Shown in pieces: positions 7,145 to 23,169 of a DNA stretch of 32,428 nucleotides (position 1 is its first letter; the number at the start of each line of letters is the position of its first letter). The DNA is taken from positions 1 through 32,428 of the forward strand of contig JAFWYQ010000085.1 in NCBI GenBank assembly GCA_017517605.1. Reading direction: 5' to 3'. A model generated the notes under the pieces. The model searched no databases and was not told the DNA's origin. It saw nothing but the letters and a program-made list of their open reading frames with translations. Both the position numbers and the translations under genes were made by a program. This stretch comes from Bacteroidaceae bacterium (GTDB lineage Bacteria > Bacteroidota > Bacteroidia > Bacteroidales > Bacteroidaceae).

Positions 7145-7178
7145 TTCTAAGATAAAAGAACAAAAATAAAAAAACAAT

Positions 7179-9542
7179 ATGATAGAACATTATTTCAAAC
7201 TCGCGTGGCGGCAATTGGTAAAGTACCGCCTGCAATCAGTGGTCAGCATCGTCAGTCTGGCCATCGGCTTCGCCTGCTTCACCATGGCGGCGATGTGGAT
7301 AAAGTATGAAACAACGTATGATGCGTTTCACAAGGATGCGGACGGCATCTATGAATTGTTGGAATATAAACAAGAGATGCTATCATATCTTGGCAAGGCG
7401 GATATAGAACAATGGCCTGAGGTGGCAGAATTTGCCCTCTATACTGGTTCGTATTGCGAAGAGGTTAATGGACAGAAAGTGGAAGTGTATGAACGCTTGG
7501 TGTTCGATAGTTGTTTCTTGTCCATTTTTCACCTTAATTTCTTGGAGGGAGGTGCTGATTTCTTGCACGATGAAGGACAAGTGGCCATTAGCGACCAATT
7601 GGCGAAAAAACTCTATGGTGACGAATCACCCATTGGGAAGGAATTGACCCTCGATACCTCCATTCAATCACAACAACGACGTATAGTGACGGGGGTATTC
7701 AAAAGTTGGGGCGAGCATACAAACAGTCCGTTTGAATTGATGAGCAAATACCCTTCTGTAATCCCTTCCAACCATTACTTCACCCAGTCTTGTGTGATGC
7801 GCTTGCATCCGAATGTGAATGTGGATACTCTGAATGCACGTTTGGCTGATTATAGAAAACCAACGGGAGCCTTTATCCGTAAAAATGGAGAACTATATCC
7901 CTATGAAGTGAAAACAAGTGCTAAGGTCGTCCCTATCACCAAGTTGCGTCATTCTACAGATCAATACGAATCATCCGCTAAACTCAAGATTGAGCATATT
8001 TATCTGTTTGCTTGTGCTGGTTTGTTGTTGATTGCGTGCGGATTACTGAACTACTTGACGATGTTCATCAACCGTCTTTTTATCCGTCAGCGCGAGATGG
8101 CTTTGCGCACTGTATTTGGAGCCACAGGTGGTAATTTGATGGTTCAATTCCTTGTCGAGTACGGCATGTTGTTGCTGATTGCCATGTACTTTGGTCGCCT
8201 CACGTTGGAGAGTTCTTTGGAGTGGTTTCGTACCATGGCCGAACTGCCCACTGACATTGGATATATCTATCGCGAGACGTGGCTTTTCATGTCAATCGTT
8301 ATGGTAGTGTCATTGCTTGTTTCAGTGCCTGCCATCTGGTATTTCCGTCGACAATCGTTGCAAAGCAGCATTACGGGCGTTGGAGGATTGACCCGCTACA
8401 ACACCTTCCGTCGTATCAGCACAGGTTTTCAGATGGGTATTGCCATCTTCTGTATCTTCTGTGTAGTAGTGATGATGAAGCAACTCGACTCTTTACGCCA
8501 CGAGGATATTGGCTTCAAGCGCGAAAATATTGGATATAAATATGTGGTCAGTACATCAGAGGAGATTGAGGCTTTAACCTACTTCTTGAAACAACAACCC
8601 GAGGTAGATACGGTTATCGTACCAACTCATTCCATTTACCCGATAAGCAGTTATGGTATGTCGGAGATTTCTCCTGAAGAAAATCCTCGATTGAGCGAAC
8701 CGATTGCGTATTCGCAAATGAGGATAAACGAAGCTACCGTCAATTTCTACGGTATGACTTTGCTACAAGGCGAATGGCCCGACCCCTACAAGCATGGGCC
8801 ATGGAGCGTGGTTGTGAACGAATCGTTTGCCCGCCAATTGGGGTATGAAAATATTGAAGAGCTTATCGGAAAAGAGGTGGAGGGCATTCAAGTGGTTGTA
8901 GGTGTCTTTAAGGACATAATGAACCGCGCTCCTACGCAAAAGGCCGAGGCGTGGATGTTGCAAGCTGAGGACACACGTAAAGAAGAGGGTACGGGCGCTT
9001 ATTGGAGACGACATATCCTTTTCAAATTCAAGCCGGGTACATTCCCTATCCTAAAACAAAAGATTGAAGACCTTTATAAACAACAGGGATGGAATGATAG
9101 TGGAGACCTCAGTACGTTGGAAGCCACATACGAAGAATTGCTGGAGTCGGAAAAGAATTTGCAGAAACTACTAACCATCACGTCCATCGTCTGCATCCTC
9201 ATCGCCCTCTTCGGCGTGTGGTCAATGATTATGCTTACCTGTGAACAACGCCGCAAGGAAATCGCCATCCGCAAGGTGTTTGGTGCTACGGTGAAAGACA
9301 TCCTCGACATGTTTTTCCTTGAATACATGACCCTGCAAGGAGTGGCGGCTTTGGTAGCCTTTCCCCTGGGCTATGCCTGCATGAAGCCATGGCTGGAGCA
9401 ATACGTGGTGCAGACAGAGATTTCTTGGTGGATTTACGTCGGCATCTTCATGGCCGTAGCTCTGCTCGTAGCACTCTGCATCGGTTGGCGCGTGTGGAAG
9501 ACGGCTACCGCCCGTCCGGCAGATGAGATTTGCAAGGGGTAA
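7179..9542 (+). CDS. FtsX/MacB-like ABC transporter permease (third of three)
   Basis: A 787-residue paralogue of the preceding gene. It starts with the same block (MIEHYFKLAWRQLVKYRLQS) and ends with the same 117-residue block. The first FtsX module contains RQREMALRTVFGATG and the second RRKEIAIRKVFGATV. The periplasmic domains differ from the previous copy throughout. The gene ends 12 bp before a long hairpin shared with the convergent ybaK gene. As with its neighbours no ATPase or membrane-fusion partner is adjacent, so the transporter is incomplete within this window. Confidence 0.87.
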   Translation: MIEHYFKLAWRQLVKYRLQSVVSIVSLAIGFACFTMAAMWIKYETTYDAFHKDADGIYELLEYKQEMLSYLGKADIEQWPEVAEFALYTGSYCEEVNGQKVEVYERLVFDSCFLSIFHLNFLEGGADFLHDEGQVAISDQLAKKLYGDESPIGKELTLDTSIQSQQRRIVTGVFKSWGEHTNSPFELMSKYPSVIPSNHYFTQSCVMRLHPNVNVDTLNARLADYRKPTGAFIRKNGELYPYEVKTSAKVVPITKLRHSTDQYESSAKLKIEHIYLFACAGLLLIACGLLNYLTMFINRLFIRQREMALRTVFGATGGNLMVQFLVEYGMLLLIAMYFGRLTLESSLEWFRTMAELPTDIGYIYRETWLFMSIVMVVSLLVSVPAIWYFRRQSLQSSITGVGGLTRYNTFRRISTGFQMGIAIFCIFCVVVMMKQLDSLRHEDIGFKRENIGYKYVVSTSEEIEALTYFLKQQPEVDTVIVPTHSIYPISSYGMSEISPEENPRLSEPIAYSQMRINEATVNFYGMTLLQGEWPDPYKHGPWSVVVNESFARQLGYENIEELIGKEVEGIQVVVGVFKDIMNRAPTQKAEAWMLQAEDTRKEEGTGAYWRRHILFKFKPGTFPILKQKIEDLYKQQGWNDSGDLSTLEATYEELLESEKNLQKLLTITSIVCILIALFGVWSMIMLTCEQRRKEIAIRKVFGATVKDILDMFFLEYMTLQGVAALVAFPLGYACMKPWLEQYVVQTEISWWIYVGIFMAVALLVALCIGWRVWKTATARPADEICKG

Positions 9543-9553
9543 TGAGGGGAGAA

Positions 9554-9630
9554 AAGGTTCAAAGTTCAAAGTTTAAGGTTCAAAACAAAATCAGAACTCT
9601 TTGAACCTTGAACCTTAAACTTTGAACCTT
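9554..9630. terminator. Long bidirectional hairpin made of GTTCAAA-type heptamers
   Basis: Two 31-nt arms (9554-9584 and 9600-9630) are reverse complements at 28 of 31 positions, with a 15-nt loop. Each arm is itself a series of degenerate heptamers (GTTCAAA/GTTTAAG). It sits exactly between two convergent genes and ends 1 bp from the ybaK stop codon, so it is well placed to terminate both. The stem is A/T-rich and no clear poly-T tract follows, so the role is inferred from structure and position. Confidence 0.65.
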
Positions 9631-9631
9631 A

Positions 9632-10120
9632 TTAGAACAACTCGCAAGGTTCTGCTTGTGCCGCCCGTATGAGGTCAGCCGGTGCAAGTTTCATCTGAAG
9701 ACCGCGTACACCGGCACTGACATATATATAAGGATAGTCGAGTGCCGTGCGGTGGATGTAGGTAGGGAAATGTTTCTTCATGCCAATAGGTGAACAACCT
9801 CCACGAATATAGCCGGTGAGGGGAAGCAGCTCCTTCATGGGGATAAGGTCGCACTTCTTGTTGCCACTCACCTTGGCGGCCATTTTCAGATCCACTTCAT
9901 CGCCTCCAGGGATAACACAAACAAAATACCCCGTACGGTCGCCATGAAGCACAAGGGTCTTGAACACTTGTCGGATGTCCTCGCCCAATTGGGCTACAAT
10001 GTGGTGGGCACTGAGGTCGTTCTCGTCCACTTCGTAGGGGATGAGTTCGTAGGCAATTTTTGCCTTGTCCATCAGGCGGGCAACGTTGGTCTTTTGGATT
10101 TTATCTTTTTCTTTGGGCAT
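9632..10120 (-). CDS. ybaK: YbaK-type Cys-tRNA(Pro)/Cys-tRNA(Cys) deacylase
   Basis: A 162-residue cytoplasmic trans-editing protein that hydrolyses mischarged Cys-tRNA(Pro). The YbaK/EbsC fold is recognised from QVFKTLVLHG with the family's essential lysine at residue 54, and from the GGCSPIG segment at 107-113 that lines the substrate pocket. Length matches the usual 155-165. It lies 69 bp downstream of uvrA on the same strand and may be read through from it; the gap contains CTAG nonamers. The substrate is assigned by family; ProX-type relatives share the fold. Confidence 0.9.
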   Translation of the reverse strand: MPKEKDKIQKTNVARLMDKAKIAYELIPYEVDENDLSAHHIVAQLGEDIRQVFKTLVLHGDRTGYFVCVIPGGDEVDLKMAAKVSGNKKCDLIPMKELLPLTGYIRGGCSPIGMKKHFPTYIHRTALDYPYIYVSAGVRGLQMKLAPADLIRAAQAEPCELF

Positions 10121-10139: not shown

Positions 10140-10193
10140 CTAGATTTACTAGAGATTCTAGATTATCTAGATTTACTATTCTATATTTATTAG
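10140..10193. repeat. CTAG-led nonamer repeats between uvrA and ybaK
   Basis: CTAG recurs every 9 nt at 10140, 10149, 10158 and 10167, in units such as CTAGATTTA, CTAGAGATT, CTAGATTAT and CTAGATTTA, decaying to CTATTCTAT. The CTAG core makes overlapping short palindromes possible. It occupies most of the 69-bp gap. Confidence 0.75.
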
Positions 10194-13018
10194 TGGTTGT
10201 TTAGTTCTTCTCTGAGGAATTGGGGGGTATATCCTTTCTCTGAGAGGGCGACCTCTTCGGGTGTTCCACTGGAGAGGAGCACTCCTCCACCCTTTCCACC
10301 TTCGGGACCCATGTCGATGATGTGGTCGGCCATTTTGATGACATCGAGGTTATGCTCGATGACGATGACGGTATTCCCCTTATCAACCAATCGGTTGAGT
10401 ACGTTCAGGAGGACACGGATATCTTCGAAATGAAGGCCCGTGGTAGGTTCATCAAGGATATATAACGTCTTGCCCGTGTCGCGCTTGGCAAGTTCGGTTG
10501 CCAGTTTGACACGTTGGCTTTCACCACCGGAGAGGGTTGTGGAAGGTTGGCCGAGTTTGACGTAGCCAAGGCCTACATCCTGAAGGACCTTTATCTTGGA
10601 GAGGATATTGGGGACATTCTCGAAGAACTCCACGGCTTGGTTGATGGTCATGTCGAGCACGTCGGCAATGGATTTACCTTTGTAGCGCACTTCCAATGTT
10701 TCACGGTTATAGCGCTTGCCATGGCACACTTCGCAAGGCACCATCACATCAGGGAGAAAGTTCATTTCGATGGTCTTGTAGCCATTTCCACTACATGCTT
10801 CGCACCGTCCGCCACCGATGTTGAACGAGAAGCGTCCGGGCTTGTAGCCACGTATCTTGGCTTCGGGCAATCCGACAAAGAGATTTCGGATGTCGGCAAA
10901 TACGTTGGTATAGGTGGCGGGGTTGGAGCGCGGTGTGCGTCCGATGGGCGACTGATCCACATCCACCACCTTGTCGATATACTCCAATCCTTCGATGGAG
11001 TCGTATGGCAATGGTTCTTTGAGTGAACGGTAAAATCTTTGCGAAAGGATGGGATGAAGTGTCTCGTTGATGAGCGTGGATTTTCCGCTTCCCGACACAC
11101 CTGTCACACAGATGAGTTTACCTAAAGGAAATTCCGCATCCACCTGCTTCAAATTATTTCCCCGTGCTCCGCGAATAACAAGGCTCTTTCCATTGCCTTT
11201 ACGTCGTTCGGCAGGCACTTCTATCTTCAGCTTACCGGTGAGGTAGTTGGCGGTCAATGTATCCTGCTTCAACATCTCTTCGGGTGTACCTTGGAAGACC
11301 ACTTCGCCTCCCAATCGTCCGGCACGAGGTCCCATATCGACTACCCAGTCAGCGGAGAGCATCATATCCTTGTCGTGCTCCACCACTATAACAGAGTTTC
11401 CCAAATCACGAAGGGCCGAAAGAGAGTTGATCAGTCGGCGATTGTCCCGCTGATGGAGGCCGATGCTTGGTTCATCAAGGATATAGAGCACGTTCACCAG
11501 TTGCGAACCTATCTGTGTGGCCAAACGGATGCGTTGGCTCTCTCCACCCGAAAGGGTCATGGAGGCACGGTTGAGCGAGAGGTAATCCAATCCTACGTCG
11601 AGCAAGAATTTGAGACGAGTGCGGATTTCCTTCAAAATCTCCGTGGCGATGGTGCGTTGTTTATCCGAGAGGTGCTCCACTACCCCTTGCAACCAGGCAT
11701 ATAGTTCGCTGATGTCCATTTCGGCAAGCTCCATAATGTTCTTGTCGTGGATGCGATAGCTGAGCGCTTCGCGATTGAGTCGTTTCCCTTCGCATTCGGG
11801 ACATACGGCCGTACGCGAGAATTGCTCTGCCCACTTCTGTTCGGTAGCACTGGTCTCCTGCTCTTGAAGCATTTGTATGTATTTCACCAATCCCTCAAAT
11901 GTAACGAAGTAATCGGAGTTGGTGTGGATAAGGCTTGCCTTGATACGGAGGCGGTCATCGGAGCCATTGAGGATTTCATCTATCGCCTCGTCGGGCAATT
12001 GGTTGACGGGTGTCTTGAGGTCGGCTTCGTACTTCTCCAACAGAGCTTCTATCTGAAAGAAAATCATCGTGCCCTTGTACTTGCCTAATGGAGCAATGGC
12101 TCCCTCGTAGATGGAGAGCGAACGGTCAGGGATAACCTTATCTATATCAATGAGATTGACCACACCCAATCCTTTGCATCGTGGACATGCGCCGTGTGGT
12201 GAGTTGAACGAGAAGTTGTGCGGAGCCGGCTCGCGATAGGCAAGGCCCGTGACGGGGCACATCAGGCGCTTGCTATAGTGGCGCACCTCGCCCGTGTCAG
12301 CATCAAGGATGAGTATCAATCCGTCGCCTTGTGCCATGGCCGTGGCCACGCTTTGGCGAAGGCGCTCTTCGTCGGTGTTGGACACCTTCATCTTGTCGAT
12401 GACGATTTCCACATCGTGATTCTTGTATCGGTCGAGTTTCATGCCGGGGAGAACCTCCTTCACCTCGCCATCCACACGGGCATAGAGGTATCCTTTGCGA
12501 CGTATTTGCTCGAAGAGTTCCTTATAATGTCCCTTGCGGCTACGCACGGCAGGAGACAATATCATGATGCGCTTGCCAAGGTATTGTTCGGTGATGAGTT
12601 CGAGAATCCGCTCTTCGGTGTATTTCACCATAGGTTCGCCCGAGAGGTAGGAATAAGCCGTAGCTGCACGGGCATAGAGAAGGCGCAGGTAATCGTACAC
12701 TTCGGTCGTAGTGCCTACGGTCGAGCGTGGATTCTTGTTGGTGGTCTTCTGCTCAATGGAGATGACAGGACTGAGCCCCGTAATCTTATCCACATCGGGT
12801 CTCTCCATACCGCCCAGAAAGTTGCGGGCGTAAGCCGAGAAGGTCTCTATATAACGGCGTTGGCCTTCGGCAAAGATGGTGTCGAAAGCCAACGATGACT
12901 TGCCGCTTCCGCTCAATCCTGTGATAACGGCCAGTTTGTTGCGGGGAATCTCCACGTCCACATTCTTCAGATTGTGCACGCGCGCTCCCCAGACATTTAT
13001 CTTTTCTTCTTCGTTCAT
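10190..13018 (-). CDS. uvrA: UvrABC excinuclease subunit A
   Basis: A 942-residue damage-recognition ATPase of nucleotide excision repair, close to the E. coli length of 940. Walker A motifs GLSGSGKS (34-41) and GVSGSGKST (near 640), two LSGGESQR signatures, and [18 protein letters not shown] Walker B segments show both ABC modules. The C-terminal zinc module has CEAC...CEVC. The N-terminal zinc module reads CPVTG...CPRC (Cys254, Thr257, Cys278, Cys281), so one of the four expected cysteines is Thr. The insertion domain and the [15 protein letters not shown] segment typical of UvrA are present. Start ATG 13016-13018 fits the conserved N-terminus. The upstream gene ends 107 bp away. Confidence 0.97.
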
Positions 13019-13023
13019 TTTTC

Positions 13024-13065
13024 AGTTACAAGTTATGAGCTACAAGCTACGAGTGACGAGTTACC
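13024..13065. repeat. Six tandem heptamers of AGTTACA type
   Basis: Units at 13024, 13031, 13038, 13045, 13052 and 13059 read AGTTACA, AGTTATG, AGCTACA, AGCTACG, AGTGACG and AGTTACC. All share AG at positions 1-2. They fill the space just upstream of the uvrA start codon. Confidence 0.8.
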
Positions 13066-13078
13066 ATACATCAAGCGT

Positions 13079-13122
13079 CGGTTAAGGCAACCTTACCTCA
13101 GGGTTAAGGTAGGCTTAACCGT
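13079..13122 (-). repeat. Two 22-nt palindromic units; possible terminator of the type B sorting-domain gene
   Basis: Units 13079-13100 and 13101-13122 are each 22 nt. The first pairs GGTTAAGG with CCTTACC (one bulge); the second pairs GGTTAAG with CTTAACC perfectly around a 5-nt loop. The two units also pair with each other as one long hairpin. A partial third unit (CGGTTAACG) overlaps the stop codon of the upstream gene. No T tract follows on the minus strand, so termination is uncertain. Confidence 0.6.
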
Positions 13123-13125
13123 CGG

Positions 13126-13851
13126 TTAACGTATGTTTCCTCCATTGAGTCCACCTTGTCCGCGAAGGATGTTGATGTCACGTCTGATGTGATACTTAAT
13201 CCCATCCGAGCCAACAGCTTCTACAACAATAAAATATACTCCATCAGCAACGTCCTTGCCTCCGTATGTGCCGTCCCATCCTTGGTCGATGTTGCTCAAG
13301 TTGCGTTGGCAGATTCGTTGTCCCCAACGGTTGAAGATGGATACATCCAACTTCACCAACGACTGGAAGGTGATGCGATAGACATCGTTCACTCCGTCGC
13401 CATTGGGCGAGAAGGCATTGGGCACCTTCAGGGACGATTCGCTGATGACGATAATGATAGGTTCGGATTCCTCCTCCATAGGTTCGGCAGAACCATCATC
13501 GGGCGAATAGGTAATCTTCAATTGCACGCCGTATGTGCCCGAATCGTAGAAGGTGTATTCCGTATCCGGCTCGAATCGGCGCAACAGAGCATCCTCGGGG
13601 TTATCGGCCGGATAGATAACCCATTCGTAAGCATAGGTGTATCCATCCTGTTCATCCGGCTGAGCCTCAAAAGATACTTTCAGCGGAGCCGAAGCCGTGT
13701 AGCTTTCGCCACAGGTGATGAGAGTCTCTTCCTCCACAGGGCCTCCGTTTTCCTCCAACACCCGTCCGATAGGGTTGCTCACCTGTGCCTTGGCAACCAT
13801 CTGTGAAAAGAGGGCAAAGGTGAGGGTGATAAAAGTGGTTCGTATATTCAT
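13126..13851 (-). CDS. Secreted protein with PKD-like region and T9SS type B (gliding-motility-associated) C-terminal domain
   Basis: A 241-residue exported protein. Residues 1-22 form a signal peptide ending in AKA-Q. Residues about 50-135 look like a PKD/Ig-like beta domain. Residues 142-236 match the CHU_C / gliding-motility-associated C-terminal domain: PNAFSPNGDGVND at 144-156, NRWG at 174-177, and WDGTYGGKDVADGVYFI at 192-208. In Flavobacteriia such domains direct proteins to the type IX secretion system and are usually at the end of very large adhesins; here almost the whole protein is the domain plus one beta module. No T9SS component is encoded in the window apart from a PorT-like barrel of uncertain role. 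Confidence 0.85.
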   Translation of the reverse strand: MNIRTTFITLTFALFSQMVAKAQVSNPIGRVLEENGGPVEEETLITCGESYTASAPLKVSFEAQPDEQDGYTYAYEWVIYPADNPEDALLRRFEPDTEYTFYDSGTYGVQLKITYSPDDGSAEPMEEESEPIIIVISESSLKVPNAFSPNGDGVNDVYRITFQSLVKLDVSIFNRWGQRICQRNLSNIDQGWDGTYGGKDVADGVYFIVVEAVGSDGIKYHIRRDINILRGQGGLNGGNIR

Positions 13852-13870
13852 ATTTATTCCTTTTAAGATG

Positions 13871-13878
13871 CAAAAATA
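13871..13878 (-). promoter_or_regulatory. -7 element for the type B sorting-domain gene
   Basis: The minus strand reads TATTTTTG, an exact TAnnTTTG match, 20 bp upstream of the start codon. It is back to back with the element driving the divergent LysM gene. Confidence 0.55.
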
Positions 13879-13964
13879 GTGTTTCCTGTCGAAATAACGG
13901 TTGAAAAAGGGTATTATTATTTGCTAAACAACGCTATTTCGTGTAAAGAGTAGATATTTTTTTG

Positions 13965-13972
13965 TAATTTTG
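13965..13972 (+). promoter_or_regulatory. -7 element for the LysM gene
   Basis: TAATTTTG matches TAnnTTTG exactly and lies 47 bp before the ATG at 14020, giving a leader of about 40 nt. Confidence 0.55.
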
Positions 13973-14019
13973 CGGCCAATAACAACCATTCTTGGACAAA
14001 TAAAGATTAGAGAATACAG

Positions 14020-15864
14020 ATGAACTTCTTCAAACGTATATCCGTTGCCTTGATGCTCGTGGGCAGTTCGATTGTCGCCATGGCTCAGGTTACCCAACAA
14101 GACAACACCTTTTTACACACCATCATGCGTGGTCAGACACTCTACTCCATCTCCACCATGTATGGCGTGAGTGTAGATGATATTGTAAGCCTCAATCCCG
14201 GAAGCGACAAACAGGTGAAGGCGGGCGAAACTCTGCGTATCCCCCAACAGTCCAAAAAGGCCGACGGCACCGTACAAAACCGTCTGCATTTCCATACCAT
14301 CCAAGCGGGTGAAACACTTTATCGCATCACCCAAAAGTATCAAGTGAGTGCCGACATCATCTGCCGCGCCAATCCTGGATTGAGCGCAGAGAACTTCCGC
14401 ACCGGCCAAGTCATCGTCATCCCCATGACTGAGCAAGTGACAACTCCAGCGCCCGTGGCACCTGTACAGGAGATGAAAGAAGATAAGAAAGAAACCACCT
14501 CGCCTTGCCGCGAGATGCATAAAGTGAAGCGCAAGGAAACCATCTTCAGCATCAGCCGCATGTACGGCATCAGCGAGAAGGAACTCATCGATGCCAATCC
14601 CGAATTGAAAACAGAGAAGTTGAAGAAAGGCAAATTCCTCTGCATCCCTTACAAGAAGCAATTGGAGTTGGTGATAAAGACTCCCGAACGCACACCCTCA
14701 AACGAAGAACTCTTCACCAAGAGCCAACCTGCCACCAAAGAGGTGGGAAGCATTGATGCCGCCCTTGTCCTCCCCTTCCAATTGGATGCGGCCGGCGGAC
14801 AACAAACATTGATGTTGGAGTACTACGAAGGATTCCTCTTGGCCGTAGACAGTTTGAAGAAACAGGGTGTCAGCATCAACCTCCATGTGTATGACACGGG
14901 TGAGCGCACTGCATCGGTAGAGAACATTCTGGCCAAGCCCGAATTGAAGCAGATGGATGTTATCTTTGGCCCTGGACATGCTGAGCACCTCAAACCCCTC
15001 TCCGACTTTGCCAAGGAAAACGGAATCCGCTTGGTAGTCCCCTTTACCTCCAAGGATAGCGAAGTATTCACCAATCCCTACCTCTATCAAGTGAACACTC
15101 CACAATCCTACCTCTATGCACAGGTGTACAAGCTCTTTGCCGAGCAATTCGCTGAATACAACATTGTGTTTGTGGAGGTTAACGATGGCAAGGACAAAAC
15201 CGACTACATCAAAGGTCTGCAGCAAGAACTTGACACACGCGGCATCAGACACCAAACCATCCCTATGCCCGAAATTGTAGAAGAGACAAAGGGTGAAGGC
15301 GAAGAGAAGGAAGAAATCATCACCGTGCCTGGTCTTACCAACGCATTGGATTCAACCAAGCACAACATCATCATCCCCACATCGGGCACCAACACGGCAT
15401 TGACCAAGTTGCTCCCCTTGATTCAATTGGTGGTGCGTACCGATGAAACTCCCTATCAGGCTCACCTTTTCGGCTATCCCGAATGGCAGAAGTATTACAA
15501 CGACCACTTGCAGGCCTTCTACGAGTTGGATACCTACTTCTACTCTTCCTTCTACACTAACAACCTGTTGCCCAGTTCAAAGAACTTCCACAACAAGTTC
15601 CATAACATGTTCAACAAAGAGATGCATACCACCTATCCCAAATACGGAATGCTTGGCTTCGACATCGGCTATTATTTCCTGAAAGGATTGAAAACATACG
15701 ACTCCAAGTTGGAAGAAAATCTCTCAACATACGACATTGTGCCCGTGCAGACAGGCTTCCACTTCGAACGTGTGAACAATTGGGGAGGATTCATCAACAA
15801 GAAGGTATTCTTCATCCACATGACACGCGACCACGAACTCATCAAGATGGATTTTGAACAATAG
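14020..15864 (+). CDS. Triple-LysM protein fused to a type 1 periplasmic-binding-like domain
   Basis: A 614-residue exported envelope protein. Signal peptide 1-22 (cleavage before Q23 in AMA-Q). Three LysM domains follow at about 33-75, 91-135 and 167-210, each with the (G/K)-(E/Q)-T-(L/I) start and an (R/V/C)-IP end, expected to bind peptidoglycan. A linker rich in P, K and E separates LysM2 and LysM3. Residues about 235-610 resemble the leucine/amino-acid ABC solute-binding fold (IDAALVLPF, then YYEGFLLAVDSLKKQG, and VIFGPGHAEHLKPLSDFA). The binding domain is anchored to the wall rather than to a transporter, so a sensor or scaffold role is more likely than uptake. It ends in tandem stops TAG-TAA. 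The PorT-like barrel follows after 63 bp and is likely in the same operon. Confidence 0.87.
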   Translation: MNFFKRISVALMLVGSSIVAMAQVTQQDNTFLHTIMRGQTLYSISTMYGVSVDDIVSLNPGSDKQVKAGETLRIPQQSKKADGTVQNRLHFHTIQAGETLYRITQKYQVSADIICRANPGLSAENFRTGQVIVIPMTEQVTTPAPVAPVQEMKEDKKETTSPCREMHKVKRKETIFSISRMYGISEKELIDANPELKTEKLKKGKFLCIPYKKQLELVIKTPERTPSNEELFTKSQPATKEVGSIDAALVLPFQLDAAGGQQTLMLEYYEGFLLAVDSLKKQGVSINLHVYDTGERTASVENILAKPELKQMDVIFGPGHAEHLKPLSDFAKENGIRLVVPFTSKDSEVFTNPYLYQVNTPQSYLYAQVYKLFAEQFAEYNIVFVEVNDGKDKTDYIKGLQQELDTRGIRHQTIPMPEIVEETKGEGEEKEEIITVPGLTNALDSTKHNIIIPTSGTNTALTKLLPLIQLVVRTDETPYQAHLFGYPEWQKYYNDHLQAFYELDTYFYSSFYTNNLLPSSKNFHNKFHNMFNKEMHTTYPKYGMLGFDIGYYFLKGLKTYDSKLEENLSTYDIVPVQTGFHFERVNNWGGFINKKVFFIHMTRDHELIKMDFEQ

Positions 15865-15927
15865 TAATTTAGGTACGGATGACACGAATAACACTACTCG
15901 TTTAGTAAAGTAATATTGTGTCCATAC

Positions 15928-16662
15928 ATGAATAAAACAATGAAACATTTCTATACTCTCCGCAAAGCCGCCATGCTTTTCCTCCTTGCAGGAAGCCTCT
16001 TCACAGCCAAGGCACAGATGAATACACAGATAACCGATTATCGCAATAATTTGGCCATCGGATTCAACGGAGGAGCCACCTTCAATAGTGTAACATTCTC
16101 GCCAAGCATCAAGCAGACGATGCAACAAGGCTTTGTAGGTGGTTTTACCGCGCGCTACATCAGCGAAAAGTATTTCGCCATGATTTGTGGTCTTCAGATA
16201 GAAGCCAACTTCAGCCAACGCGGATGGAAGGAAAAGATTGAGGACGGCACAGGTAATACTTACCAACGCACGCTAAACTATGTGGAAATCCCCTTCCTTG
16301 CCCACCTTGCCTTTGGCGCAGATGACCGTGGCGCACGCTTCTTCATCAATGCAGGCCCCCAATTCAGTTTCTTCCTCAACGACAAGGAAGAGTATGGAGG
16401 TTTACAACCATGGGACCCCAGCCATCGTCCGAACAATGTCACCCACCAATACGGTAAATCGGTAGAGAACAAATTTGAATACGGTATCACCGGTGGACTC
16501 GGCCTCGAAGTACGCACCGGCATCGGCAATTTCCTCCTCGAAGGCCGCTATTACTATGGCCTCTCCGACATCTACGGCAATAGCAAGAAGGACTATTTCT
16601 CCCGCTCAGGACTTTCCACTATTTATGGCAAAGTCACATACTTGTTCGACTTGACAAAATAA
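15928..16662 (+). CDS. PorT-family outer-membrane beta-barrel protein
   Basis: About 244 residues. I prefer the ATG at 15928 (or 15940) over the upstream TTG at 15916, because these begin just before a signal peptide ending LFTAKA-Q. The mature protein has alternating amphipathic strands (LAIGFNGGATFNSV, GFVGGFTARYISEKYFAMICGLQIEANFSQRGW, and YVEIPFLAHLAFG) and ends with an aromatic-rich strand and final VTYLFDLTK. This pattern matches PorT-like outer-membrane barrels common in Bacteroidales, where PorT itself supports type IX secretion; many paralogues have no known role. It follows the LysM gene and could link wall and outer membrane. Confidence 0.8.
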   Translation: MNKTMKHFYTLRKAAMLFLLAGSLFTAKAQMNTQITDYRNNLAIGFNGGATFNSVTFSPSIKQTMQQGFVGGFTARYISEKYFAMICGLQIEANFSQRGWKEKIEDGTGNTYQRTLNYVEIPFLAHLAFGADDRGARFFINAGPQFSFFLNDKEEYGGLQPWDPSHRPNNVTHQYGKSVENKFEYGITGGLGLEVRTGIGNFLLEGRYYYGLSDIYGNSKKDYFSRSGLSTIYGKVTYLFDLTK

Positions 16663-17061: not shown

Positions 17062-18330
17062 TTATCCTCCAAAGTTATCGTACATGATAGAGCTTTCCTC
17101 TACGCCGAGGTCGGTGAGCATAGCCACCACGGCCTTCGACATGGGACCGGGGCCACACATGTAGTACTCGATGTCTTCGGGGGCTTCGTGATCCTTCAGG
17201 TAAGTGTTCAGCATCACCTGGTGAACGAAGCCTGCGGTGTACTTCACGCCAGCTGCATCGGCAGCAGGGTCGGGACGGTCGAGTGCCAAGTGGAAGTGGA
17301 AGTTGGGGAAATCCTTCTCCAATCCGAGGAAGTCTTCGAGGTAGAACACTTCGTTCAAGGCACGTGCACCATAGAAGTAGTGCATTTCGCGATCGGTTGT
17401 GTGGAGAGTCTTGGTCATGTGCATAATCTGTGCACGGAGGGGAGCCATACCGGCACCACCACCAACCCAAATCATTTCGCGCTTGGAGTCGAAGTGCGGA
17501 TGGAAGTCTCCGTAAGGACCACTCATGATTACCTTGTCGCCGGGCTTCAGGGTAAAGATGTATGATGAAGCGATACCGGGGTTCACATCCATGAATCCGC
17601 TACGGTCGGCCTTCATAGGCGGAGTAGCAATACGCACGGTCAGCATGAACACGTTACCCTCGGCAGGATAGTTGGCCATAGAGTAAGCACGCACGGTCTC
17701 CTCGGGATTGACACACTTCAAGGGGAAGAGGCCGAACTTCTCCCATGCAGGCAGATATTCGTCGCCAATGAGGCCCTTGTCGATGTCCTTGTCATAATCC
17801 ATAGAGAATGCAGGAATCTTGATCTGTGCATACGAACCGGGGAGGAAGTCCATCTGAGCACCTTCGGGAAGCTGCACCTTGAACTCCTTGATGAAGGTTG
17901 CCACGTTCTTGTTGCTGATAACAGTACATTCGTACTCCTTCACACCCATAACGCTTTCGTCAACCTTGATGCCGAGGTCACCCTTCACCTTGCACTGGCA
18001 AGCCAGACGCCAGTTGTCCTTAATCTGCTTGCGGGTAAAGTGTCCCTTCTCTGAATCGAGGATTTCGCCACCGCCTTCTACTACCTGGCATTTGCACTGG
18101 CCGCACGAGCCCTTACCGCCACAAGCAGAAGAGAGGTAGATGCCCTGTGCCGAGAGGGTGTTGAGCAAGCTGCTACCCTGCTCCACTGATACGGTGTCCT
18201 TACCATTGATGGTAATGTTCACATTGCCGCTGGGCGACAAATACTTCTTTGCTACGAGCAACATAATCACCAAGATAAGTACAATGGTGAGAAATACTCC
18301 GATGCTCGCTAATATTAAATTCATATCCAT
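17062..18330 (-). CDS. nqrF: Na+-translocating NADH:quinone reductase subunit F
   Basis: A 422-residue NADH-oxidising subunit. One N-terminal TM helix (about 6-27) anchors it. A plant-type 2Fe-2S ferredoxin domain uses Cys70, Cys76, Cys79 and Cys111. The FAD-binding motif RAYSMANYP lies at 214-222 and the NADH-binding GGGAGMAPLRAQ at 290-301; the chain ends DNFGG as in the family. It passes electrons from NADH via FAD and 2Fe-2S to the rest of the complex. Last gene of the operon, separated from nqrE by a 120-bp repeated spacer. Confidence 0.97.
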   Translation of the reverse strand: MDMNLILASIGVFLTIVLILVIMLLVAKKYLSPSGNVNITINGKDTVSVEQGSSLLNTLSAQGIYLSSACGGKGSCGQCKCQVVEGGGEILDSEKGHFTRKQIKDNWRLACQCKVKGDLGIKVDESVMGVKEYECTVISNKNVATFIKEFKVQLPEGAQMDFLPGSYAQIKIPAFSMDYDKDIDKGLIGDEYLPAWEKFGLFPLKCVNPEETVRAYSMANYPAEGNVFMLTVRIATPPMKADRSGFMDVNPGIASSYIFTLKPGDKVIMSGPYGDFHPHFDSKREMIWVGGGAGMAPLRAQIMHMTKTLHTTDREMHYFYGARALNEVFYLEDFLGLEKDFPNFHFHLALDRPDPAADAAGVKYTAGFVHQVMLNTYLKDHEAPEDIEYYMCGPGPMSKAVVAMLTDLGVEESSIMYDNFGG

Positions 18331-18450
18331 AATCTTTTTCTTTAATTTGCTAATGTGATAAATCTGCCAATTTGCTAATCACTGGTCTTCAGACTTTGTT
18401 TTTATGCCCCAACATTGGCACATCTGCACATTGACATATTAGCACATTAT
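18331..18450 (-). repeat. nqr intra-operon spacer element, copy 1 (E/F junction)
   Basis: Homologous to the spacers at 19048-19175 and 21697-21822. It opens (plus strand) with TAATTTGCTAATGTGAT, has a central short hairpin (GTCT/AGAC) followed by TTTTATGC, and ends in octamers with ACAT-type starts at 18412, 18420, 18428, 18436 and 18444. Left (GCTAATGTG) and right (CACATTAGC-like) ends can pair. Confidence 0.75.
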
Positions 18451-19047
18451 TTAGATTTTCAAACCAGAGAAACACATGAATGCCATAGCCATGAGACCTA
18501 CGGTGATGAATGTAATACCAAGTCCCTTCAAGGGAGCGGGCACATCAGAGTAAGCCAACTTCTCGCGGATAGCGGCAAGGCCGACAATAGCAAGTAACCA
18601 ACCGATACCTGAACCTGCTGCATAGCTGAATACTTCACCCATGTCGCCAAACTGACGTTGTTGCATGAAGAGCGATGCACCCATGATGGCACAGTTTACA
18701 GCAATCAACGGAAGGAAGATACCGAGCGAAGCATACAACGAGGGGCTGAAACGCTCAACAATCATTTCCACCAATTGTACGATGGCTGCGATAACGGCAA
18801 TAAAGAGAATCAGGCTAAGGAAGCTGAGGTCAACACCCTCAACCAATGCATTGGCCTTGAGCACATAATTTTCCAACAGATAGTTGACCGGGAGAGTCAC
18901 CAACAACACGAAGGTAACAGCGATACCCAAGCCAAGAGCTGTCTTTACGTTCTTAGATACTGCCAAGTAGGAACACATTCCCAAGAAGTAGGCGAATATC
19001 ATGTTGTCCACGAAGATGGACTTGACAAATAAACTTAAATATTCCAT
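18451..19047 (-). CDS. nqrE: Na+-translocating NADH:quinone reductase subunit E
   Basis: A 198-residue integral-membrane subunit with six hydrophobic segments, homologous to NqrD and RnfA/E. The start [20 protein letters not shown] and the segment [20 protein letters not shown] are characteristic; the conserved Cys in LGMCSY belongs to the intramembrane iron site shared with NqrD. Flanked on both sides by repeated spacers, unlike the tightly packed B-C-D part. Confidence 0.97.
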
Positions 19048-19175
19048 ACGTTATTTATTAATTTGCTAATGTGATGAATTTGCCAATTAGCCAATCATTG
19101 GCCTACGGCCTTTGGTTTTATACACATTATTTTTATTTGCATATTAGCACATTTGCATATTAGCACATTGGCACA
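19048..19175 (-). repeat. nqr intra-operon spacer element, copy 2 (D/E junction)
   Basis: Same element as at 18331 and 21697. The central hairpin is GGCC/GGCC around TAC. The right part holds repeats of GCATATTAGCACATTT type. Its last CACATTA overlaps the nqrD stop codon (TAA, 19176-19178), so the repeat runs right to the gene end. Confidence 0.8.
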
Positions 19176-19814
19176 TTAATTACTACTTTCTTGCAATTCG
19201 GGATTCTTGGCACGCTGATACCAGATGATGCAAGCCACAATGATGAGAGCCATAGGAGGCATCAGCATAAGGCCGTTGTTCAAGTATCCAGCTTCGTAAG
19301 CCACTTCAGGGATAATACGAATACCGAAAAGGGTACCTGAACCCAACAACTCGCGGAAGAAAGCCACGATAATCAAAATCTTGGCGTATCCAAGACCATT
19401 ACCTATACCATCGAGACATGACTCCCAAGGACCATTCTGCATGGCAAAAGCCTCAAGGCGTCCCATCAAGATACAATTGGTAATGATAAGACCTACGTAA
19501 ACAGAAAGCTGTACACTCACGTCATAAGCAAAAGCCTTCAGAATCTCACTTACAATAGTTACCAATGCGGCTACAACCACCAACTGAACGATGATACGGA
19601 TACGGTTGGGAATTGTGTTACGCAACAGAGAGATGACCACGTTAGCAAAAGCCGTAATCACGGTCACAGAAAGTCCCATCACGATGGCCGGCTCCAACTG
19701 AGCTGTTACGGCCAAGGCTGAACAGATACCGAGCACCTGTACGGTTACAGGGTTGTTCAAACCAAGCGGAGTAAAGAGAACTTCTTTATTCTTTTTTGAA
19801 AACAATTGACTCAT
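19176..19814 (-). CDS. nqrD: Na+-translocating NADH:quinone reductase subunit D
   Basis: A 212-residue integral-membrane subunit, six hydrophobic segments. LGICSALAVTAQLEPAIVMG contains the conserved Cys of the iron site shared with NqrE; TNCILMGRLEAFAM is the second conserved inverted-repeat half with its Cys. It starts 19 bp after the nqrC reading frame and, unusually here, has a clear Shine-Dalgarno sequence. Confidence 0.97.
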   Translation of the reverse strand: MSQLFSKKNKEVLFTPLGLNNPVTVQVLGICSALAVTAQLEPAIVMGLSVTVITAFANVVISLLRNTIPNRIRIIVQLVVVAALVTIVSEILKAFAYDVSVQLSVYVGLIITNCILMGRLEAFAMQNGPWESCLDGIGNGLGYAKILIIVAFFRELLGSGTLFGIRIIPEVAYEAGYLNNGLMLMPPMALIIVACIIWYQRAKNPELQESSN

Positions 19815-19833: not shown

Positions 19834-20505
19834 TTATTTAGTTAAAAACTTCTCGTAAGGTTTCAAACAATTCTTCAACATGGCATCCACACCGTTTGAA
19901 GTGATTGTACCACCAGAGATACCGTCCACTTCATAATCAGGGTTAGCCACGCGACCGTTCTTCACCACGCTCAAACCTACGTTTGCACCGTCGAACACCT
20001 TCTTGCCAGTAAATTGTCCCTGAAACTTGGGTGTTGTGATTTCTGCGCCAAGGCCAGGAGTTTCACCTTGATGAGAGAAATAAACACCATAAACAGTGTT
20101 TCTGTCGTCATTCTAGCCGATGTATCCCCAGATGGGTCCCCAAAGACCTGCACCATAAACAGGGATGACATACTTCTTGACACCATCGACTTCGCACTCA
20201 AACACGTGCAGACGTCCTTCGGCAATCTCACCTTTATAGTTGGTGTTGAACGCACCGTCGTTAGCGACAAGTGAACCGTCGGCCTGCATCAGCATATCAC
20301 CCTTCACGTATGTGTTGTAAGCAGCCTCAGCATCTTCTACATCAGCAATGTTGAGAGCAGCCAAAATCTGCTTCTTGGTATCCAATTCTACATTCTTGTT
20401 CTGTATGTCTTTCAATGAAGAGCTAACAAAAGCAAGCAGGAATGCTACGATAATAACCATTACCGAAGCATAGATGATTGTATAGCTATTACTATTTGTA
20501 TTCAT
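19834..20505 (-). pseudogene. nqrC: Na+-NQR subunit C interrupted by an in-frame TAG at codon 131
   Basis: The frame runs from ATG 20503-20505 to TAA 19834-19836, 223 codons, which is a normal full length. Codon 131 (20113-20115) is TAG. Before it: an N-terminal TM helix (about 8-30) and periplasmic domain up to GLWGPIWGYIG. After it, in the same frame and without any other stop: NDDRNTVYG, GETPGLGAEI and SGGTITS (197-203), where Thr200 is the covalent FMN attachment site. The 130-residue product would lack this site. TAG also ends nqrA, potD and the LysM gene, so it is not generally recoded. By alignment to V. cholerae NqrC from memory, the lost residue should be hydrophobic, so TTG to TAG is the simplest change. 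A sequencing or assembly error is a serious alternative. Confidence 0.85.
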
Positions 20506-20520: not shown

Positions 20521-21696
20521 TTATTTGTTAGTATTCAAACGTTTCACACGACGATTGATGTTGCTCTGTACTACGTAGTAGTCAATCAGCGGAGCAAATA
20601 CGTTCATCAACAGGATGGCAAGCATCATACCTTCGGGATAACCGGGGTTGAGCACACGGATGATAACCGCCATAGCTCCCACGAGGAAACCGAAGATGAA
20701 CTTACCTGTCTCAGTACGTGCAGAGGTCACAGGGTCAGTCGCCATGAATACGGCACCGAAACAGAAGCCACCAAGTACGAGATGCTGATACCAAGGCATT
20801 TGAGCCATGAAGTTTCCTTCAGGACCACAAACATTGAAGATAAGTCCCATTACGGCACCACCAACGAATACGCTAAGCATGGTCTTCCAGCTGGCCACAC
20901 CACTCCACAAGAGGAGGATAGCACCAAGAAGAATGGCAACAACACTTGTTTCACCGATTGAACCAGGGATAAAGCCCCACACCATATTCATATCGAAAGC
21001 CGGTACGCCCACGGTAGCAGCTTGGCCAAGAGCAGTAGCTGCAGTGAATCCATCGGGCAGGTCGGCACCAAGGCCGAAAATACTTTCGGTAGCTACCCAT
21101 ACAGTGTCACCAGACATCTGTGTAGGATAAGCAAAGAAAAGGAACGCGCGCGCTATAAGAGCCACGTTGAACACATTCATACCTGTACCACCAAACACTT
21201 CCTTTGCAAAAATCACCGCGAAAGCAGTAGCTACAGCCAAAATCCACAACGGACAGTTCACGGGTACAATCATCGGAATCAACATACCAGATACGAGGAA
21301 ACCTTCCTGAATTTCTTCGTTCTTCAGTTGGGCAATGATAAACTCGATACCCAAACCTACGATGTAAGAGACGAGAATCTTGGGCAATACGGCCAAGAAG
21401 CCATAACCGAAGACTTCGATGAAGCTGGCACTACTCATTAAGCCTGCGGCTGTGTAGTGCTGATAACCTACGTTGTACATACCAAACAAAAGAGCAGGTA
21501 TCAACGCGATTACCACGAACGACATGATGCGCTTTGAATCAATGGCATCATGAATATTCACGCCATGGCGTGCAGTGGTGTTGGGTACGAACAGGAATGT
21601 TTCGAAACCGTCGAACACCGAACGCAGCGCGTGAAGCTTGCCTCCCTCCTCAAAGTTCGGCTTTATTTTGTCGAGATAATTTCTTAACGCTTTCAT
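20521..21696 (-). CDS. nqrB: Na+-translocating NADH:quinone reductase subunit B
   Basis: A 391-residue integral-membrane subunit with about ten hydrophobic segments. The covalent FMN site is recognisable as DGFTAATALG at 215-224, with Thr221 the expected attachment residue. FEGGTGMNVFNVAL-type quinone-site sequence appears as EVFGGTGMNVFNVAL near 166-180. NqrB forms the sodium channel and quinone-reducing core. It starts 126 bp after nqrA across a repeated spacer and is separated from nqrC by only 15 bp. Confidence 0.97.
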   Translation of the reverse strand: MKALRNYLDKIKPNFEEGGKLHALRSVFDGFETFLFVPNTTARHGVNIHDAIDSKRIMSFVVIALIPALLFGMYNVGYQHYTAAGLMSSASFIEVFGYGFLAVLPKILVSYIVGLGIEFIIAQLKNEEIQEGFLVSGMLIPMIVPVNCPLWILAVATAFAVIFAKEVFGGTGMNVFNVALIARAFLFFAYPTQMSGDTVWVATESIFGLGADLPDGFTAATALGQAATVGVPAFDMNMVWGFIPGSIGETSVVAILLGAILLLWSGVASWKTMLSVFVGGAVMGLIFNVCGPEGNFMAQMPWYQHLVLGGFCFGAVFMATDPVTSARTETGKFIFGFLVGAMAVIIRVLNPGYPEGMMLAILLMNVFAPLIDYYVVQSNINRRVKRLNTNK

Positions 21697-21822
21697 AATT
21701 TATATAATTTGCCAATGTGATGAATTTGCCAATGCGTCAATTATTGGCCTACGACTTTTGTATTATGCACATTATTAGTTCTATTGCTCATTAGCACATT
21801 TCGCACATTAGCACATTAAACA
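21697..21822 (-). repeat. nqr intra-operon spacer element, copy 3 (A/B junction)
   Basis: Opens with TAATTTGCCAATGTGATG, has the central GGCCTACGAC segment, then TATTATGCACATTATTAG and CATTAGCACATTT-type repeats ending just before the nqrA stop codon. It aligns along its length with the copies at 18331 and 19048. Confidence 0.8.
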
Positions 21823-23169
21823 CTATTCCATCTCCTTTCTGAGTGCGTCCAGTCCTTCACGAACAATACGTTGCAACTCCAATTTCGATGAATCAACAAA
21901 CTCACACAGGGCGAAATCCTCAGGAGCCACCTCATAAATACCCAATGCCTCCATACGGTCGATATCGCCAGCAATGATGGCCTTGATAAGATATTCAGGC
22001 ATGATGTCCATGGGGAACACGCGGTCGTACTCGCCACTCATAATCATGTGACGCTCGCCACCCTTCACACGGGTATCAAGGGTATACTCCTTCTTGCCCA
22101 TCAACCAACTGAAGTAACTGCGGCTGGTACTGTATTGGTCAAAGCGAGGCATAATCCAACCCAACATTTCGTGAACATCATCTCCTTCAGGAATAACGGT
22201 CAATTCTGTCGCATGAGCAGCAACGAAACCTTCCAACGATGTCTTATAACCCGTCAGTACGTTTCCATTGATGATACGTAAACTCTTTCCTTCAGCCATG
22301 CGGCCTTTCAACACGCTTTCAATCTTAGCGCCCACCTTCACACGAACGTATGCAGGAGCGTTCACTTCTGAACCTGCCACAGCGATGGTACGTGTAAAAT
22401 CAACACAACCTGTATTGAACAGACGACCGATGAAAATAACCTCCTCAGCGCCCAATGTCCATACCACTTCGCCCTTATTCACAGGAGCGATATTATTAAT
22501 CTGTACACCTACATTACCTGCAGGATGAGGACCGTCGAATACCGTTACGGTCACATTCTTGGCTTGAATCAATGCGGCAGAAGTCTGCTTGGCACTTACA
22601 CTCAAACATGTGGGAGCAATCTTAGCCAACGCATCAAGACCTGTCTGGAAGTCCGCTTCCTGACCATTCAACACATACTCGAACTCGGGAGCCAGAGGCT
22701 GAGAGTCGAATGCAGAAACAAAAATAGCACGCGGAGCTACTTCTGGAGCAGGAACCACGTCATACGGACGTTGCTTGAAGAATGCAAAAAGACCTGCTTC
22801 GAGTAAGGCCTCCTTCACCTGGCCGCCCGAGAGGGCTGACACATCCTTCTTGCCAAAATCAACAACCTCGTTTCCCTCAGCAGCTACACGGATACTCATT
22901 ACCTTACGGCGCGCACCACGCTCCACAAGGGTCACCTTACCGCTAACAGGCGAAACGAATTTTACATCAGGGTGATTCTTGTCAACGAACAAAGCCTCAC
23001 CGGCCTTGACAATCTGCCCTTCCTTGACTACCACCTTGGGAGTGACACCAGTGAAATCATCGGGCACGAGAGCATACTCTGCCGACGGCTTCACATCCAT
23101 CATTTCCCGCGCTGGTTTGCCTTTCAGAGCAATGTCCAAACCTTTACGTAACTTTACTATGTTTGCCAT
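21823..23169 (-). CDS. nqrA: Na+-translocating NADH:quinone reductase subunit A
   Basis: A 448-residue peripheral subunit without TM helices, first gene of the operon. The start MANIVKLRKGLDIALKGKP and GDIDRMEALGIYEVAPEDFALCEFVDSSK-type C-terminal segment (here with ALCEFVDSSKLELQ) are characteristic. The family helps bind quinone and cap the cytoplasmic face. It ends in TAG. An exact -7 promoter element lies 38 bp upstream of the start. Confidence 0.97.
   Translation of the reverse strand: MANIVKLRKGLDIALKGKPAREMMDVKPSAEYALVPDDFTGVTPKVVVKEGQIVKAGEALFVDKNHPDVKFVSPVSGKVTLVERGARRKVMSIRVAAEGNEVVDFGKKDVSALSGGQVKEALLEAGLFAFFKQRPYDVVPAPEVAPRAIFVSAFDSQPLAPEFEYVLNGQEADFQTGLDALAKIAPTCLSVSAKQTSAALIQAKNVTVTVFDGPHPAGNVGVQINNIAPVNKGEVVWTLGAEEVIFIGRLFNTGCVDFTRTIAVAGSEVNAPAYVRVKVGAKIESVLKGRMAEGKSLRIINGNVLTGYKTSLEGFVAAHATELTVIPEGDDVHEMLGWIMPRFDQYSTSRSYFSWLMGKKEYTLDTRVKGGERHMIMSGEYDRVFPMDIMPEYLIKAIIAGDIDRMEALGIYEVAPEDFALCEFVDSSKLELQRIVREGLDALRKEME

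Follow-up and report, generated by a model that had tools for sequence, protein, structure and literature searches.

An isolated in-frame TAG in nqrC of a Bacteroidaceae draft genome: probably a very recent nonsense change or a sequence error

What does a TAG codon in the middle of nqrC signify when the rest of the Na+-NQR operon looks sound? We analyzed a stretch of 32,428 nucleotides from a Bacteroidaceae bacterium (GCA_017517605.1; the stretch, called the window here, is contig C89), on which the nqrABCDEF operon is complete and in the usual order apart from a stop in nqrC. An earlier note on this DNA had proposed that the stop is a recent mutation, is read through, or is an error. We compared the gene with its relatives, and examined its operon, the decoding of TAG in this genome and the quality of the assembly.

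The nqrC frame runs from an ATG (20505) to a TAA (19834), with 223 codons preceding the final stop, and the sequence confirmed the earlier description of a frame of this length broken by a TAG at codon 131 (Table 1). The two halves match the NqrC model (TIGR01938/NF003750) from end to end, and the TAG keeps them from forming a single uninterrupted open frame. The TAG lies near the start of the FMN_bind domain (PF04205, 19861-20148), so that most of this domain is encoded in the post-stop part. The motif SGGTITS, which we take to be the FMN-accepting motif of NqrC, occupies codons 197-203; its first threonine is codon 200, present and in frame as the earlier note had stated, but past the stop. 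Covalent FMN is carried on threonines of NqrC and NqrB, according to the available portion of one report (PMC4348036). Among the near-invariant columns of the alignment the window keeps 48 of 48, 20/20 before the stop and 28/28 after it, in keeping with the earlier remark that the post-stop part is well conserved. Because both halves match NF003750 and every near-invariant column is kept, the frame across the TAG is, judged from sequence, more than chance.

Table 1. Positions of nqrC, its parts and the other nqr genes in the window.
Feature	Coordinates	Strand	Remarks
nqrA	21823..23169	-	uninterrupted ORF, above TIGRFAM cut-off
nqrB	20521..21696	-	uninterrupted ORF, above TIGRFAM cut-off
nqrC reading frame	19834..20505	-	224 codons, final TAA counted; broken at codon 131
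nqrC before stop, 130 codons	20116..20505	-	NF003750 positions 1-130, E 1.8e-64
In-frame TAG, codon 131 of nqrC	20113..20115	-	
nqrC after stop, 92 codons	19837..20112	-	NF003750 positions 133-224 of 225, E 1.3e-43
nqrD	19176..19814	-	uninterrupted ORF, above TIGRFAM cut-off
nqrE	18451..19047	-	uninterrupted ORF, above TIGRFAM cut-off
nqrF	17062..18330	-	uninterrupted ORF, above TIGRFAM cut-off

Relatives are intact at this site. We collected 117 nqrC loci, 109 of them inspected individually, which gave 101 distinct proteins; one of these (L110, 119 residues, cut by a contig edge) was left out, and it has Leu at the codon-131 site. None of the remaining 100 distinct relatives, each of at least 200 codons, has a stop there. 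The residue is Leu in 90, Phe in nine and Met in one, all of them hydrophobic, so the alignment of sister genes for which the earlier note had called bears out its guess at the kind of residue lost. Among the matches listed in two nqrC surveys, one of which used the post-stop part alone as query, no genome besides the window's has an internal stop in nqrC; the count of 100 was drawn from the aligned loci. The gene itself is widely retained: the nqrC model was matched in 363 of the 399 Bacteroidaceae genomes searched, and in 197 of the 207 family genomes with at least 90% completeness and at most 5% contamination.

Relaxed selection after the stop, expected only of an old pseudogene, is not seen against the nearest relatives. 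In comparison with the two nearest relatives, dN/dS of the window is 0.060 before the stop and 0.041 after it (L005), and 0.043 before and 0.044 after (L033). Against the more distant L036 and L039 the values before the stop (0.082 and 0.094) are lower than those after it (0.136 and 0.140), but the pre-stop dS of these pairs is saturated (>2), and their dN falls rather than rises past the stop. Against L034 and L035 it is dN that rises, from 0.045 and 0.044 before the stop to 0.076 and 0.103 after; the unique post-stop amino-acid changes number three in L034, six in L035 and one in the window, and the excess in L034 and L035 thus does not lie on the window. Two of the 14 dN/dS values are undefined (L035 after the stop, L037 before it). 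In an unrooted count over four sequences (the window with L033, L034 and L035), the part of nqrC before the stop has one amino-acid change and 12 synonymous codon changes that only the window shows, and the part after it has one amino-acid change and 11 synonymous ones.

These comparisons bound the age of the stop. Under a simple Poisson model, in which the terminal branch is half the pairwise dS and the constraint is that before the stop, a post-stop part evolving without constraint for 10% of the terminal branch would lead us to expect 20-21 nonsynonymous differences, whereas 8 and 9.5 were seen (P 0.0009 and 0.010); for a stop aged 5% of the branch, P is 0.015 and 0.13. The post-stop part still has the look of a working gene, and so the stop would be young or not in the organism at all: on these sequence comparisons it is younger than roughly 5-10% of the branch leading to the window's genome, or an error.

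The lesion is also confined to one gene of the operon. In tblastn comparisons of ORFs from L033, L034, L035 and L037 with the window, nqrC was the sole nqr gene with an internal stop; the other stops counted there, by our reading of the coordinates, precede start codons or belong to shadow frames. The earlier view of an operon otherwise intact therefore holds, with nqrA, B, D, E and F each over its subunit cut-off. No lesions were found in the neighboring genes at 10190-16662 with homologues in L033 or L035. This region, beside nqrF, is ordinary in content and encodes a UvrA-domain protein, a type IX secretion signal protein (CHU_C), a LysM protein and an outer-membrane beta-barrel. On the selection pattern and the intact partner genes we rejected an old, decaying operon.

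A separate observation concerns nqrA, in which 24 amino-acid and 52 synonymous changes are unique to the window; the corresponding counts are 11/38 in L033, 7/21 in L034 and 6/21 in L035. By these raw counts the window's share of amino-acid changes is somewhat above those of its three relatives.

Could the TAG be read through, by a suppressor tRNA, near-cognate decoding or a lineage-private recoding, such that full-length NqrC is made? The preserved frame and the retention of all near-invariant residues after the stop would suit this reading. Decoding in this genome points the other way. By model score and open frame, RF1 is intact on contig C92 (prfA model 453.1 bits, cut-off 423.25, no internal stop). 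The tRNA model has 42 matches in the genome, and ARAGORN, run on those loci and on a first set of stretches, gave 44 distinct tRNA contexts, none with a CUA anticodon. This search, which the earlier note had also proposed, drew on a visibly incomplete set, with no gene labeled Ile or Cys and a genome at 80.5% completeness; one of the missing tRNAs could be a suppressor.

TAG is, moreover, an ordinary terminator. Of 217 ORFs sampled first, 27 end in TAG; in a larger sample of 671 ORFs, 87 do, nqrC's own short ORF among them. The sequence behind terminators is not coding-like on average for any stop, the mean score of the codons there being -0.107 for TAG (the least negative; 27 ORFs, nqrC among them), -0.138 for TAA (126 ORFs) and -0.174 for TGA (64 ORFs). 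A scan of 914,492 bases and 671 ORFs, which had about 50% sensitivity (1441 of 2880 simulated stops found, in ORFs of at least 150 residues) and is blind to frameshifts and misjoins, recognized no mid-gene stop other than that of nqrC. It returned 12 candidates: nqrC; seven shadow frames, which by our reading of the table lie beneath a longer ORF on the opposite strand; and four cases of neighboring genes, two genes in one frame with their own Pfam family on each side.

Recoding of TAG finds no support in the intact RF1, the tRNA set recovered or the ordinary use of TAG, and the earlier note had likewise argued against general recoding; a suppressor tRNA in the unassembled part of the genome leaves this reading a small opening. 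The three options of the earlier note were the right ones, and read-through is the least likely of them because RF1 is intact, no CUA tRNA was found among the 44 contexts and no examined relative has a stop at the site; nor was a second gene with such a stop recognized. We consider it very improbable. Less probable still is a useful decoding of amber in NqrC by this lineage, in which a private suppressor tRNA or context-dependent read-through would let termination efficiency tune NQR.

The least probable reading of those we weighed is a two-piece NqrC, in which a restart after the TAG would make the FMN domain as a separate protein. An ATG does begin four bases past the first base of the stop, but it is out of frame and yields 44 codons only. 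Within the frame, no start-like codon follows the stop before codon 170 (GTG), and no ATG before codon 209, which is past the FMN threonine; a fragment lacking the N-terminal membrane anchor would presumably not be exported. On the positions of these start codons we rejected a split gene expressed by re-initiation.

Our preferred reading, held tentatively at a little short of an even chance, is that nqrC in the strain sampled acquired one isolated nonsense change very recently. With RF1 intact and TAG in ordinary use, translation would end at codon 131 and leave a product of 130 residues that lacks the FMN threonine together with most of the FMN-binding domain. Within Na+-NQR, electrons run through the FMN of NqrC; without it they should not pass on, and the complex would be inactive. 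The expectation in the earlier note that loss of the FMN site should block the pump is supported to this extent. A null cell would then need other routes for NADH.

If the TAG terminates translation, about 300 bases would be left untranslated ahead of nqrD. The earlier note had suggested that an independent Shine-Dalgarno site could keep nqrD translated. The motif AAGGAG is indeed present upstream of nqrD, but the argument built on it is weak because ribosomes of Bacteroidia are reported not to recognize Shine-Dalgarno sequences (PMC9976891, available portion).

A second nqrC copy elsewhere in the genome was considered. The only other FMN_bind match found, on contig C65, is rnfG (TIGR01947, over its cut-off); the nqrC model has three matches in the window's genome. 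For complex I, the subunit family PF00146 had no match in the 80.5%-complete genome. Contig C65 (L173) carries an Rnf cluster at 5275-9441, with matches to the rnfB, rnfD and rnfG models over their cut-offs; rnfC is assigned by reading of the ORF alone, and by that reading rnfA is absent from C65. Since rnfE is broken off near the end of the contig, a working Rnf is putative.

The fitness of such a null can be judged from Bacteroides fragilis. In the available portion of one study (PMC7002350), NQR is the main NADH:quinone reductase of that species, and an nqr deletion mutant grew normally in rich medium and made up less than 1% in mouse-gut competition. By analogy a cell without nqr would survive, although selection in the gut should disfavor it. 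Given this cost, an assembler should not easily end up with a null as its reported allele.

Since a recent null would be viable yet disfavored in the gut, an error is nearly as likely: the TAG would then stem from base calling, assembly or consensus building, or would be a minor allele picked by the assembler, and nqrC of the organism would be intact. The lack of relaxation after the stop relative to the nearest relatives fits an error equally, and the strong fitness cost of NQR loss in a related species (PMC7002350, in part) favors it. The TAG is known from draft assembly sequence alone, and the assembly (134 contigs, 2.97 Mb, 2.16% contamination) is a draft. The window's genome is probably a metagenome-assembled genome (MAG), because its seven nearest named relatives (L033-L039) all are; the nearest of the named records, Bacteroidaceae MAGs, derive from water buffalo rectum, goat cecum and roe deer colon. 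Two nqrC loci from genomes of its genus (L016, L028) agree in identity and frame length with loci recorded as uncultured Phocaeicola (L050, L068), which makes Phocaeicola, or a genus near it, probable. In the parts of the literature available to our search, nothing specific was found on premature stops and strain mixing in MAGs.

One further contig bears on the quality of the draft. On C65, rnfE (9465-9976) matches its model as far as position 119 of 196, beyond which the sequence is unrelated; the break lies ~145 bases from the contig end, no continuation was seen in three frames, and the genome yielded no second rnfE over the cut-off. The sequence suggests that the C65 end is probably misjoined. 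Such a misjoin is not the same sort of error as a wrong base, yet it shows that the draft is not clean. Against an error stands the scan described above: with no other mid-gene stop recognized in 914 kb, the assembly is not visibly rich in base errors of this kind. Against the very recent nonsense change count the retention of nqrC in nearly all good genomes of the family, the draft state of the assembly and the misassembled-looking end of C65.

The junctions between the nqr genes drew our attention independently of the stop. Related AT-rich repeats, about 110-125 bp long, lie in three of the five junctions in the window (18331-18450, 19048-19175 and 21697-21822). One end of each has units spaced by eight bases (AATGTGCT-like), and the opposite end has inverted units. 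The genome contains 63 matches to these repeats, of which many span 28-45 bases and some overlap. When folded as single strands, the repeats do only slightly better than shuffled sequences (z -0.95, -1.81 and -1.52), and the 15-base string GCACATTAGCACATT was not found in the papers searched.

We examined the same junctions in six outgroups (L037-L040, L044 and L050). In five they are 12-28 bp long, and in the sixth, L050, one junction is 146 bp and one 36 bp; the window, L033, L034 and L035 have 76-175 bp at three or four of the five junctions. The fillers belong to several repeat families (GTGCTAAT octads; GACCCCATCCCAGCCTTCCCC...GGAGGGTC; the AATTATGAATTATAAATT type), which sit at different nqr junctions in different species. 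Small elements seem to accumulate in the operon junctions of the window's clade while the genes stay conserved, and these crowding repeats may be of more interest than the stop in nqrC.

If the very recent nonsense change is real, it would be a naturally arisen null for the enzyme that serves B. fragilis as its main NADH:quinone reductase (PMC7002350, in part), and of some help in asking when NQR is dispensable. If the TAG is an error, it cautions against drawing physiology from a single base in a draft genome. On both accounts the stop would be an ordinary lesion or an error, and points to no new kind of system and no new reading of the code.

Set beside known systems, the locus resembles NqrC (TIGR01938/NF003750) in that its halves jointly cover the model, the gene order is nqrABCDEF and the SGGT threonine is encoded; it differs from NqrC by one in-frame TAG, absent from the 100 distinct relatives. 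Amber-recoded genetic codes likewise have an in-frame TAG within a conserved gene; unlike them, the window's genome has RF1, terminates ordinarily at TAG and yielded no CUA tRNA among the contexts found, and no second mid-gene TAG was recognized in the sampled sequence. From a recent nonsense pseudogene, the window's nqrC differs in that the base comes from a draft alone and that NQR loss costs fitness in a related gut species (PMC7002350, in part); it shares with that kind a single lesion, an intact frame afterwards, the selection pattern of a working gene and intact relatives.
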